This document shows, one piece after another, positions 4,922 through 20,725 of a DNA stretch of 21,607 nucleotides. A program made the position numbers and the translations under genes. The notes below the pieces were generated by a model. The model saw nothing but the letters and a program-made list of their open reading frames with translations, made no database searches and was not told where the DNA came from. How positions within the stretch are numbered: position 1 is the first letter of the stretch; each line of letters opens with the position of its first letter. The stretch is from a virus: positions 1-21,607 of IMG/VR virus record IMGVR_UViG_3300049783_000420. One strand, written 5' to 3'.

Positions 4922-5525
4922 TAAATGTTCCCATAATCATAAATCTTTTATATTTTTGTAATTGTAATTCTTCTGCTATAAGTATATCTGTTAGATTAGA
5001 CTTCTTAATAAATTGATCAAGGCTGCTACTACAATTGATGTGTTCTTTTAATTCATAATAATTATTAGATTGTAAAACTATCTTTGCACCTTCGGGTATT
5101 TTGTTTAACCATCTGTTATATTGGTCCGGTGTAATATGTTCACAACTTGTATTAATAACAAAATATGGATCATTTGTATATTCGTAATCACACATATCTG
5201 CTGTAACTGCTTTAAACCGGCCATCTATTTCTTGGCGCTTATTAATTGTTGATGCAGTTTGCTCACATGCAGGATCAATGTCTATACTTGTAATATGTTT
5301 AATTCCTAATTCACTATTAAACATCATACTAGCAAGTACTCCGTTCCATCCTCCAAAAATAGCACATTCAGCATTAGAAATATGTGTTTTTAGTTCAAGT
5401 GTTTCAATTAGCCATGTTTTAGACTGAAGTTGTCCTCCCCAAAGACTTTCTAAGGTTCGGTCACGATCTTCACTATTGCGAATAGCATCAGCCCAAAACT
5501 TTATATCTTGAATATCAATCTTCAT
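4914..5525 (-). CDS. Class I SAM-dependent methyltransferase-like protein (203 aa)
   Basis: A Rossmann-type methyltransferase fold is suggested by a motif I-like strand and loop at 53-67 (AIFGGWNGVLA), an acidic SAM-ribose strand at 78-85 (ITSIDIDP), a motif at 107-112 (VTADMC) and a strand at 121-131 (YFVINTSCEHIT). There is no [DN]PP[YF] motif, so it does not look like an adenine or N4-cytosine DNA methyltransferase. The likely acceptor is a small molecule, sugar or protein, but this is not determined. It sits between two radical SAM genes. The ATG has AAAGG at 5532-5536 (complement) six bases upstream and overlaps the preceding gene's end by eleven bases. SAM is the shared cosubstrate of this gene and its radical SAM neighbours, but they need not act on the same target. 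Confidence 0.72.
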   Translation of the reverse strand: MKIDIQDIKFWADAIRNSEDRDRTLESLWGGQLQSKTWLIETLELKTHISNAECAIFGGWNGVLASMMFNSELGIKHITSIDIDPACEQTASTINKRQEIDGRFKAVTADMCDYEYTNDPYFVINTSCEHITPDQYNRWLNKIPEGAKIVLQSNNYYELKEHINCSSSLDQFIKKSNLTDILIAEELQLQKYKRFMIMGTFNV

Positions 5526-6519
5526 TCTTTACCTTTGGTATTTTACTGTCTGCACTGCTTACACAAGTAGGAGTAATACACTTACGTGGCGCCTTAAAGA
5601 GCTCAAATCCGCCGTCTAACGTGCCTAAGGGTTCGTCATGGCAACTATAGCTGCGCTTAACTTCATTTTCACGTACAACACATCCTTGGTATCCTGCATT
5701 ACAATTCCAGCCTTTAAACTTATTGAATCCAAAGGCATTAAATCGTTCAGCTTGATCTATGTAGTACTTGTTGCCGGCTTTGTCTTGTAACTCTACTTGC
5801 AATAAAGGTATTATTTTTTTAAATTCGTCTGGGATTCTTTGTGGGAATCCGGCTTGTAGTTTGTCAAGTTGTATGTCTGTATATCCGGATACCACACGAG
5901 AGGCTGTAGGATCGGACTGTGGCTTGAGAGTAACATTAATACCTCTGGCGGCAAATCTCTGTAGGCGTTCGTAAAGCTCTTCAAACATTTCAGGGACCAT
6001 AACTTGATTGATTGTAATATATACATTATTTTTCATTAATTGAAGACATTTATCTCCAAACTCCTGTTCATTTGCAAACTCCGCATGGTAGCTTGCTGTT
6101 ATACTTCTACGCTGTAAACTGCTCGTAGCTTCTAACCAGTTGTTCCACCATTTGCTTCCCGGGCTTAGATTGGTCGTCATGTGGATACTTTGGTATTCAG
6201 GAGCTGTATCACTACAGTAATGGTTTATAACCTTCCCAAAGTATTTATAAGCAGTAGGCTCGCCGCCGCTAAAACTAAAATGGAAGTCAGTAAATCCGTT
6301 TGCCCTAGCTTGTTCTTTAATACTGTCTATTGTTTTAATATATACTTCTAAATCTTGGTGATCAGGAGTGCTACTGCGAGCATAGGGCCAGCAATAACTG
6401 CAATTATAGTTACAAAATCTAGCAAGTATCCAACTAACTGTGAACAATTTCGTACCTAGTAAGGTCTTTTGTCCAAAGCTTGTTATGTCCTCAAATGGTA
6501 TGTTTTGAAAATTGTTCAT
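5515..6519 (-). CDS. Radical SAM enzyme with C-terminal twitch-like cysteines (334 aa)
   Basis: The core motif is C36, C40, C43 (CNYNCSYC), with SGGEPT at 84-89. A C-terminal cysteine group (C273, C280, C293, C314, C319) follows NKFKGWNC and surrounds a PLGT motif. It is the paralogue of the 301-residue protein at 1072-1977 and shares both the N-terminal approach to the cluster (SW.L...CNY.CSYC) and the C-terminal layout. The substrate is unknown. The ATG at 6519 is preferred over an in-frame TTG at 6531 because it starts the part that aligns with the paralogue; no strong ribosome binding site precedes either. The start lies 29 bases inside the 3' end of the upstream gene, the longest same-strand overlap in the window, so coupling to the transferase upstream is likely. 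Confidence 0.87.
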   Translation of the reverse strand: MNNFQNIPFEDITSFGQKTLLGTKLFTVSWILARFCNYNCSYCWPYARSSTPDHQDLEVYIKTIDSIKEQARANGFTDFHFSFSGGEPTAYKYFGKVINHYCSDTAPEYQSIHMTTNLSPGSKWWNNWLEATSSLQRRSITASYHAEFANEQEFGDKCLQLMKNNVYITINQVMVPEMFEELYERLQRFAARGINVTLKPQSDPTASRVVSGYTDIQLDKLQAGFPQRIPDEFKKIIPLLQVELQDKAGNKYYIDQAERFNAFGFNKFKGWNCNAGYQGCVVRENEVKRSYSCHDEPLGTLDGGFELFKAPRKCITPTCVSSADSKIPKVKNED

Positions 6520-7165
6520 ATAGCCAGTCAAAGTCGTTTATAAGTTTAAGGTCAGCATTATCAGAAAGCCCAAACTCCCTGCCAGCATTAGCACCGGCAA
6601 TAGCATACTTTCCATAAGTTTGATCCCGTCCTTTGGACCGCCAAACTGCAAGCCTTTCTTCAGTTTCTTCATTGTTTTGCCTCGCAATAGATTTACTGCT
6701 TAATTTTGCACATTCTCTAAATGCGCTGCGCCATGCTTCAAATGGACTTGTGTTAAATGCTGTAATATTTGCAACAGCGTCTACGGCAATAAACTTTGAA
6801 CTAATACTTGTAGTCATATCAGGCTTATTTGTATCCATATCAATAGTTAATTTTCTTGGAAATAATTTTACTCCGCCGTAGCCGTATTCTAAATGGTTGA
6901 TAGGATTTCTGCTGCGCCAAACATGTACGTGATCTAGTTGATGATCAGGAACAACATAATCAAAGTTAAAGTCGTCCATAATTATTGCATCAGCATCTAC
7001 AATCCAAAACATCTTAGTAAAACATTTCTTTGCTGCTTTAATATGTGCTTGGTGTATTCCTTTAATTCCATGCACACGTTTAGCCATAGGAAAGCGTAAC
7101 TTTAATGCAGCGTAGTTTTCATCTGCACTAAGTTCTTGATAACTTATGAATACAATATCATACAT
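6491..7165 (-). CDS. GT-A-like glycosyltransferase, short form (224 aa)
   Basis: Related to the 310-residue protein at 16376-17308. Both begin YDI[VI][FY][IL]SY.E, continue with AKRVHG..G...AH...A, and have a DxD candidate (D57-A-D59 here), the metal and nucleotide-sugar site of GT-A-fold glycosyltransferases. They also share RN.IN.L.YG.GG.K (85-100) and an AWR..FRE..K segment. I therefore call it a putative glycosyltransferase; the sugar and acceptor are unknown, and a catalytically inactive GT-A fold cannot be excluded. Alignment with its paralogue supports the ATG at 7165 as the true start. That ATG lies only five bases after an exact-consensus -10 box and has no well-spaced ribosome binding site, which raises the possibility of leaderless translation. 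It is the first gene of the final transcription unit. Confidence 0.68.
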   Translation of the reverse strand: MYDIVFISYQELSADENYAALKLRFPMAKRVHGIKGIHQAHIKAAKKCFTKMFWIVDADAIIMDDFNFDYVVPDHQLDHVHVWRSRNPINHLEYGYGGVKLFPRKLTIDMDTNKPDMTTSISSKFIAVDAVANITAFNTSPFEAWRSAFRECAKLSSKSIARQNNEETEERLAVWRSKGRDQTYGKYAIAGANAGREFGLSDNADLKLINDFDWLYEQFSKHTI

Positions 7166-7170
7166 GTGTT

Positions 7171-7199
7171 ATTATAGCACCTATTAGTTTGTTTGTCAA
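7171..7199 (-). promoter_or_regulatory. Exact-consensus sigma70 promoter
   Basis: On the minus strand there is TTGACA (7194-7199), a 17-base spacer, then TATAAT (7171-7176). Both hexamers and the spacer match the bacterial housekeeping consensus exactly. The -35 box overlaps the TGA stop (7196-7198) of the upstream radical SAM gene. The first base of the start codon (7165) is six positions past the end of the -10 box, so a start site five to seven bases downstream would fall on or inside the ATG. It should drive the string from the GT-A-like gene to the radical SAM gene ending at 1072. A host-polymerase early or middle promoter is the natural reading; no transcript data are available. Confidence 0.82.
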
Positions 7200-8713
7200 G
7201 AGTAATTATTATAAAGATCAGTAAATTCAGGAAACGTTTCTAAAAAATTAGTTTCTCGACGTTTGTCATGTTGATCAAAATACTTAACTAAGTTGCGGCG
7301 GTTTCTATCAAGTGCCTCAGGACTACTTAAATTCCTTGCTTGTAACGCTGCTAAGTTACGTTCAGCCTTTTCAATTTCAAAGTCATAAAATCCTATAAAA
7401 TTATCAGTATTTGCATTTGCTTTCATAAATGCAATTGCATCTACTAGGTAATGGTCAAATTCTTCTGGTAAAATATGTATTGCCTGCCATGCTGGATTTC
7501 TTAATAGCGGAATATCAAACCAAATACGCTGACGCGGATGTATTTCATAATCGTCATGTGTGTTGTAAGGGTCGTGTATAGGAACATATTTGATTCCTTG
7601 GGCATCTCTGCTATATTCAGCCCTTAATGAAAGAATATATTCTAAAAAGTTTTTAAACTTAGGTACACTTAGCGCATTAAAAGTATTAATAAATGTCATT
7701 GTTGTATTAGTAGTTTCTGCTAAGAATGTATCTACATTAGTCTGCATAACACTATAGTCTAACCCAGATCTAATATACTCAGCTTGCTCGCCTACAGAAT
7801 CAACACTAACAAACACAGCAACATTTTTCAATGCCATATTAACATACCAGTTGTTACCCGATCCAGGATTAAAGCGTTCATCATCTTTCCAAATTTGTAT
7901 TTCTTCTAATTTCTTTAGTTTGTTAATAAACTTAGTCATTAGCTCGGGCTTAGGAGGACAAAAGTTACTAGTTACACTAACTTCTAGCCATGCGTTAGGA
8001 TTTTCATAGATGTAGTCAAGTACTTTAAATGTGTTAACATCCATTAGAGGCTCACCACCTGTAATACGAAATACTTCAAGTTTCTTATATAAGTCAGGCC
8101 ACCATTTCCAAAATGCTGTTACATACGGATTATCTGCTTGCTTACCCTTTAGTGGCATTAGTCCATCTTTTGCTAGATACTCAATATTATTATGTTGAGC
8201 AGATTTACCTTTATTATCTATAATATTGTAAGGACCAAACTTAGTAACCTCTTCTTCCCAAGCAGTACTAAGGTGCGGAGAACAATATGAACATTTTAAA
8301 TTACATGCTTGGTTAAAGTTTACTTCTACATAACGAGGTATAACGTCACCAGTGTCTAACGATTCAATTATATCAGTTTTAGAATTTTGTGCCCATTGCT
8401 CGCCGCTGCGATAAATCCTATCACTACGCCCGCCTTGGTCTTCAATCTTCCAGCAATAAGAACAGCCCTCAGGTCTTTCGCCTGCAAGCATTTGTTTGCG
8501 TTCTTTCTTTTTTTGTTTAGTGTTATGTAACGCACTTGGATTGTCTACTATTTCTTTAACATCGATTTTATGTAACGGAGGATGATAACAACTGTGTGTA
8601 GTACCGTTAGTTAAATGCATAGACATTTGAGACCACTTAGCGTAGCACATACTTGGTGAAATACGTTTTAGTTGATTTTCAGCAATATCTGCTGATTCGT
8701 TATAATCGCTCAT
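7196..8713 (-). CDS. Radical SAM enzyme with N-terminal twitch domain, long form (505 aa)
   Basis: The N-terminal auxiliary-cluster cysteines C23, C42, C84 and C87 are at exactly the same residue numbers as in the 468-residue paralogue at 14973-16379, with NGTTHSCYHP around C42. The radical SAM motif is C137, C141, C144 (CNLKCSYC), and TGGEP lies at 218-222. A linker rich in aromatic residues (FWKWWPDLYKKL, 201-212) precedes the GGEP strand. The tail has FPEF at 494-497. It is among the longest N-twitch members here, with an insert between the CxxxCxxC motif and TGGEP. Its substrate is unknown. The start has AAAAGG five bases upstream and overlaps the SGNH hydrolase stop in an ATGA junction. 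A homologous radical SAM/GT-A pair occurs at 14973-17308, which suggests the two proteins work together (inference). Confidence 0.9.
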   Translation of the reverse strand: MSDYNESADIAENQLKRISPSMCYAKWSQMSMHLTNGTTHSCYHPPLHKIDVKEIVDNPSALHNTKQKKKERKQMLAGERPEGCSYCWKIEDQGGRSDRIYRSGEQWAQNSKTDIIESLDTGDVIPRYVEVNFNQACNLKCSYCSPHLSTAWEEEVTKFGPYNIIDNKGKSAQHNNIEYLAKDGLMPLKGKQADNPYVTAFWKWWPDLYKKLEVFRITGGEPLMDVNTFKVLDYIYENPNAWLEVSVTSNFCPPKPELMTKFINKLKKLEEIQIWKDDERFNPGSGNNWYVNMALKNVAVFVSVDSVGEQAEYIRSGLDYSVMQTNVDTFLAETTNTTMTFINTFNALSVPKFKNFLEYILSLRAEYSRDAQGIKYVPIHDPYNTHDDYEIHPRQRIWFDIPLLRNPAWQAIHILPEEFDHYLVDAIAFMKANANTDNFIGFYDFEIEKAERNLAALQARNLSSPEALDRNRRNLVKYFDQHDKRRETNFLETFPEFTDLYNNYS

Positions 8714-20324: not shown

Positions 20325-20667
20325 AATTGACAAGTTTCTCTACGCTTCTGCTCTGTTTAAGTTTTAAGTATTGGGTATGATAATCATTAGATGATGTAGT
20401 ATAAATATCCATAATGTGTCCGTAAAAGACACTCAAGTCTTCTACCATACACGGAATACCGTTATCATCAGTAATAATAATTTCATCTTGTTCTGCATGT
20501 ACCATTGTACTTACAAACGTAATTAATTCACGGGTAATTGTAAACTGTGATCCGCTATAAAAGTGTATTAATGATTCTTGATATTTTTCTGCTAACAATC
20601 GTTTTTGATTGTTGAGTGTTAGCATGTAATTAGAAAAGTCTAGTGCTTTCTCTAAACGCTCATCCAT
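20317..20667 (-). CDS. Small conserved-looking phage protein of unknown function (116 aa)
   Basis: I cannot assign a function. The protein is acidic and mostly helical: a leading segment (MDERLEKALDFSNYMLTLNN), a K-rich turn (QKRLLAEKYQ), a short beta region around the ITDDNG turn, and a final helix ending in KLKQSRSVEKLVNYE. No cysteines form a metal site, and there is no membrane segment or signal peptide. The helix-turn pattern and the position directly after a structural gene resemble small proteins of unknown function seen near tail genes of T4-like marine phages, from memory only. It is the first gene after a strong promoter and has a good ribosome binding site (AGGAG seven bases upstream), so it should be well expressed. 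Its stop overlaps the next start by eight bases. Confidence 0.7.
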   Translation of the reverse strand: MDERLEKALDFSNYMLTLNNQKRLLAEKYQESLIHFYSGSQFTITRELITFVSTMVHAEQDEIIITDDNGIPCMVEDLSVFYGHIMDIYTTSSNDYHTQYLKLKQSRSVEKLVNYE

Positions 20668-20696: not shown

Positions 20697-20725
20697 AGTA
20701 TATATTAAAATTAAGGCTTTGTCAA
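20697..20725 (-). promoter_or_regulatory. Sigma70-type promoter, near consensus
   Basis: TTGACA (20720-20725), a 17-base spacer and TATACT (20697-20702) on the minus strand, in the 69-base gap after the structural gene. The -35 is exact and the -10 differs from TATAAT at one base. It should start the string that runs from the small 116-residue gene to the radical SAM gene ending at 14973. The same -35 hexamer and spacing recur at 7171-7199. Confidence 0.78.

Follow-up and report, generated by a model that had tools for sequence, protein, structure and literature searches.

We found that a predicted glycosyltransferase gene of an uncultured marine phage starts five bases behind a perfect sigma-70 promoter, and that this arrangement is preserved in related phages. 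The most probable explanation by far, in our judgement, is a conserved, gene-specific leaderless expression of the transferase from sigma-70 promoters in a clade of marine T4-related phages of the jumbo type. Because many relatives preserve it, and do so for certain genes alone, the layout has the appearance of a genuine mode of expression and not of a peculiarity of a single sequence. In the window, that is the whole stretch of 21,607 nt that was analysed, the minus strand from 7199 to 7171 reads TTGACA-N17-TATAAT; AACAC comes next, and then the ATG at 7165-7163 (Table 1). The exact-consensus promoter five bases from the start codon given in the preliminary description is thereby confirmed on the minus strand at 7199-7165. 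All 12 hexamer positions match the consensus, the spacer of 17 nt falls within the 16-18 nt that separate TTGACA and TATAAT in sigma-70 promoters, and TG precedes the -10 box. Since the -35 box includes the stop of the upstream gene, the intergenic gap is scarcely longer than the promoter.

Table 1. Features of the transferase promoter and its surroundings in the window.
Feature	Position	Strand	Remark
-35 hexamer TTGACA	7194..7199	-	Includes the stop codon (TGA, 7198-7196) of the radical SAM gene upstream
Spacer, 17 nt, AACAAACTAATAGGTGC	7177..7193	-	Ends in TGC; TG at 7179-7178 forms an extended -10
-10 hexamer TATAAT	7171..7176	-	Exact consensus
AACAC, 5-nt gap from -10 to ATG	7166..7170	-	A pyrimidine precedes the A of ATG
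GT-A-fold glycosyltransferase, 224 aa (MYDIVFISYQE...)	6491..7165	-	Predicted to be leaderless
Upstream radical SAM gene	7196..8713	-	Stop within the -35 box
Downstream radical SAM gene	5515..6519	-	Homologues begin MNNFQNIPF, ATG 6519; TTG 6531 is an alternative start
Second strong promoter of the gene cluster, TTGACA-17-TATACT	20697..20725	-	Ordinary leadered kind

The promoter at 7199 is the single site in the window that matches at 12 of 12 positions. The second strong promoter of the cluster has a 29-nt leader with AGGAG ahead of a 116-aa gene at 20667. A T4-type late promoter (TATAAATA without a -35 box) was ruled out at the transferase, where the -10 box is TATAAT and the -35 box is near-invariant across the related upstream regions. 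A sigma-70-like site at the start of a paralogue (17333-17304) was set aside, its -10 box overlapping the ATG and its -35 box being explained by upstream coding sequence. The minus strand showed nothing resembling a terminator from 5515 to 7199, the Rfam scan of the window gave no match, and the message folded in an ordinary way over its first 66 nt (z -1.3).

An in-frame TAA lies two codons upstream of the ATG at 7165, so a longer start is impossible, and about 80 relatives share the same initial methionine in the alignment (MYDI, with MHDI in one cluster). The preliminary description had taken a paralogue as confirmation of this start. The start is correct, but the paralogue (17308-16376) is nine residues longer at the N-terminus and 34% identical, and thus supports it only loosely; the orthologues decide. 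Searches of the 224-aa protein gave no family match in Pfam or PHROG and no relative in INPHARED by tblastn. The AF2 model (pLDDT 90) found glycosyltransferases as its top PDB matches (E 5e-5, TM about 0.4), and a DxD-like motif, D57-x-D59, is conserved among the relatives; going by the model, the product has a GT-A fold and is a predicted glycosyltransferase. The genes of the window share one strand and one direction and leave few gaps. Those between positions 1 and 16379 mostly overlap; they include genes for several radical SAM proteins alongside 2OG-oxygenase-like, SGNH-like, epimerase-like and glycosyltransferase genes. The radical SAM gene downstream shares 29 nt with the 3' end of the transferase, which makes translational coupling probable, and it is probably co-expressed with the transferase.

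The lack of a well-spaced ribosome binding site, also claimed at the outset, held: none of GGAG, AGGA and GAGG occurs 4-18 nt upstream of the ATG at 7165. With 12 nt between it and the ATG, the motif AGGTG (7182-7178) is too distant to make a good ribosome site, and it would be absent from any transcript begun at the ATG; it is possibly a weak candidate on read-through mRNA only. The message might then begin upstream, by read-through from the promoter at 20725, with AGGTG as the ribosome site and the promoter at 7199 in a minor role. The head-to-tail order of the genes agrees with such read-through, as does the recurrence of AAAGG(TG) in the spacers of many transferase clusters and in several promoters of RfaE-like genes; about half of the 21 promoter-bearing clusters described below have AGG in the spacer, about 17 nt before the ATG, where it might serve read-through mRNA as a weak ribosome site. 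However, AGG is missing or shifted in the other half or so, whereas the -35 and -10 boxes are retained in nearly all. Shine-Dalgarno sequences are used by these phages in general (44% of genes against 7% at a control position), but their 4-mers mostly begin 9-14 nt before the ATG and few begin at 17-18. Moreover, the copies that truly depend on read-through have no promoter and are coupled at the start instead. We consider the read-through reading very unlikely.

Conservation was analyzed in 80 IMG/VR loci, which gave 32 upstream regions distinct enough to be counted separately (clusters); as the clusters are homologous, they are not fully independent trials. The promoter ends 5-7 nt before the transferase ATG in 21 of the 32, with a gap of 5 nt in nine, 6 nt in eleven and 7 nt in one. 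Matches to the consensus numbered 9-12 of 12 and at least 10 in 20 of the clusters, the sole cluster with a score of 9 (L056) having a poor -35 box. Pairwise identity between clusters was 93% in the hexamers and 47% in the spacers, so it is the promoter itself that has been kept and not the surrounding DNA. The base before the ATG depends on the gap: it was a pyrimidine in nine of nine clusters with a gap of 5 and a purine in 10 of 11 with a gap of 6 (P = 1.2e-4). This pattern in the sequences fits selection on the start point of transcription, which would be phased onto the A of AUG.

The preliminary description had proposed the downstream radical SAM genes as the real targets of the promoter, the transferase itself being poorly translated from its leaderless end. 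The next gene does overlap the transferase nearly always and is often a radical SAM enzyme. However, the promoter-bearing copies have nine gene families upstream and five downstream, and promoter, spacing and start persist where the next gene belongs to a family unrelated to those radical SAM genes (L049, L064, L070 and L076); it is the transferase that the promoter accompanies, and the gene behind it varies and is not always radical SAM. Coupling would also tie the output of the downstream gene to translation of the transferase and not bypass it. The proposed targeting is therefore not supported, and as an explanation of the promoter it is unlikely.

All 12 promoterless copies tested (eleven IMG/VR clusters and one contig of a metagenome-assembled genome, MAG) have the stop of the upstream gene at -3 to +8 nt from the ATG and are thus translationally coupled. 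A Shine-Dalgarno sequence was found by a simple motif test in 1 of the 32 clusters. Judging from the sequences, the transferase gene appears to use either its own leaderless promoter or tight coupling to an upstream stop, and a Shine-Dalgarno sequence almost never. The protein tree requires at least nine changes between the leaderless and coupled modes, four of them forced by well supported branches. One locus (L019, 3362-4757) seems to have caught such a change in action: 27 bp (nine codons) of transferase start (3396) behind a leaderless promoter belong to what is now a 23-codon ORF. A methyltransferase-like gene (3461) has been inserted after it, and a complete, coupled transferase (4086) that begins with the same 27 bp comes last; the arrangement reads as a natural cassette insertion at the start codon. 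In two other loci, L015 and L064, the promoter reaches into the 3' end of the coding sequence that precedes it, with TAGACA formed from conserved Asn-Thr-Arg-Gln codons, and in L015 the stop of the upstream gene lies inside the -10 box. These overlaps point to a possible route for the birth of promoters from coding DNA.

We also analyzed the distance between promoter and start codon genome-wide, using gene starts called by a simple ATG-only caller. In 16 sequence sets, promoters with at least 11 of 12 matches occurred at gaps of 5 and 6, at none of the gaps 0-4 or 7-16, and broadly from 17 onwards. A 335-kb relative had five promoters at gap 6, 0/5 with a Shine-Dalgarno sequence, 33 at gaps 17-40 and one each at gaps 4 and 14. 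In the pooled set of related contigs and the 335-kb relative, at the same threshold, there was 1 promoter at gaps 0-4, 21 at 5-6, 1 at 7-16 and 66 at 17-40. A Shine-Dalgarno sequence accompanied 1 of the 21 at gaps 5-6 and 46 of the 66 at gaps 17-40 (P = 9e-8, which is optimistic because related contigs and alternative starts are both in the pooled set); the empty range separating the two classes is unaffected by this. Among the IMG/VR matches listed, an exact promoter opened an ORF of at least 60 aa in 76 of 122 cases at gaps 5-6 and in 19 of 89 at gaps 11-12, counts that are supportive and no unbiased census.

Chance, or the composition of an AT-rich genome, might be thought to create such sites, and the weaker sigma-70-like sites in the window do occur about as often as in shuffled sequence (110 found, 92 expected). 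But dinucleotide shuffling of the entire window leads one to expect the exact pattern only 0.03 times, contact with a gene start not yet being required, a reversed-pattern control gave 1 against 35 in 22 contigs, and a permuted decoy consensus gave an average of 0.10 promoters at gaps 5-6 with a maximum of 2. Together with the conservation in relatives, these controls make an artefact hardly credible. With the spacing kept in 21 clusters, gaps in two separate classes, and a leaderless class free of Shine-Dalgarno sequences apart from the one case, the leaderless reading of the preliminary description gains strong comparative support from the sequences. Its description of the arrangement as unusual fits a single genome but not the clade, where the mode recurs in a gene-specific manner.

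Other gene families were compared as well. A gene for an RfaE-like heptose kinase was leaderless in 14 of 20 clusters and leadered in none, and the late sigma factor gene was leadered with a Shine-Dalgarno sequence in 37 of 37 clusters (leaders of 19-56 nt). By these counts, gene families retain their promoter class, and the leaderless mode is gene-specific. The idea that only accessory genes are leaderless was refuted by a primase-like and a helicase-like gene, identified by eye, that are leaderless in the 335-kb relative. A motif, AAAAGG(TG), recurs directly before the -10 box in leaderless promoters of the transferase and of RfaE-like loci (L507-L586), which are unrelated genes, and is absent from the leadered late-sigma promoters. 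A different phage contig (IMGVR_UViG_3300023235_000155) carries four exact promoters with leaderless spacing in 13.7 kb.

The contigs with the transferase gene also encode a T4-type capsid protein (Gp23), a terminase, a gp32-like protein and a gp55-like late sigma factor, and the capsid protein is 67-71% identical to those of the jumbo phages Vibrio phage 2.275.O, Pseudomonas phage PA5oct and Sinorhizobium phage Phosso. The phage of the window is a T4-related, jumbo-type, marine and uncultured phage. The 335-kb contig, binned in a Neomarinimicrobiota MAG, encodes a homologue of the transferase (65% identity) and Gp23. This contig (C57 of G023, 335231 bp; loci L457-L473 in a Candidatus Neomarinimicrobiota MAG bin) is itself a jumbo T4-like phage, perhaps near complete, and contig C77 of the MAG resembles a partial duplicate of it. 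The leaderless peak was absent in the cultured capsid relatives PA5oct and Vibrio phage 2.275.O, so the leaderless class is no trait of the whole superfamily.

The E. coli sigma-70 polymerase places the start of transcription 6-7 nt after the -10 box. With the -10 box fixed 5 nt (5-7 nt in relatives) before the start codon, a host-type sigma-70 polymerase using this promoter would start the mRNA on the A of the AUG at 7165 or one base away from it. The transferase would then be translated without a Shine-Dalgarno sequence by ribosomes, probably of the 70S type, that bind the 5'-terminal AUG, and the overlapping downstream genes would be carried on the same message. We infer the transcript start, the polymerase, the mode of initiation and the timing from this geometry, and assume the start-site preference and leaderless translation by analogy with other bacteria, in which 70S ribosomes read leaderless mRNAs from a 5'-terminal AUG (PMC9031893).

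Leaderless phage mRNAs named in reviews are lambda cI (PMC9031893) and those of Thermus phage phiYS40 (PMC3594737). The messages predicted here would resemble them in starting at the AUG and needing no Shine-Dalgarno sequence, but they are deduced from sequence, concern particular families (glycosyltransferase and heptose kinase), have a full -35/-10 sigma-70 consensus, and belong to phages that otherwise use Shine-Dalgarno leaders. In Deinococcus-Thermus, -10 regions abutting ORFs are common and an added -35 box raises output (PMC12340547), and mycobacteria also have leaderless genes (PMC4633059). Those systems and the predicted one have in common that the -10 box keeps a constant, short spacing to the start codon and gives a leaderless mRNA; theirs, however, are cellular, phylum-wide modes and ours is a minority class in a T4-related clade, clearly separate from the leadered class. 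In the available part of a study of a T4-like marine methylophage, sigma-70 promoters are treated as early promoters and a leaderless class goes unmentioned (PMC9004378). The transferase promoter shares TTGACA/TATAAT for the host polymerase with T4-type early promoters, and with that of the late sigma gene in the same phages, but has neither leader nor Shine-Dalgarno sequence. Like phage morons, the genes are accessory genes in a long array with their own sigma-70-type promoter and varying neighbours; in contrast to morons, no terminator-like site was found in the interval noted above, and the two replication-type genes of the 335-kb relative are leaderless as well. The open-licence PMC literature held no description of a leaderless class in T4-like or jumbo phages.

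Few leaderless phage mRNAs were known before. The present clade of abundant, uncultured sea phages as a whole maintains two promoter geometries in parallel: which one a gene has goes with its family, and this persists as the surroundings change. This provides a simple annotation rule for start codons and operons in such phages, a -10 box 5-6 nt from the ATG, and opens the question why certain genes avoid a Shine-Dalgarno leader. We tentatively suggest, as a possibility on the doubtful side, that starts free of Shine-Dalgarno sequences make such genes portable cassettes that could be placed beside other genes with no need to rebuild a ribosome site, with recombination at the conserved start swapping the modes. 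If so, coupling to whatever stop lies upstream and a leaderless promoter of 35 bp would each suffice for the start to work, and translation of the surface-glycan genes during infection would follow a regime (70S, IF3-sensitive) that differs from that of the replication and late genes.
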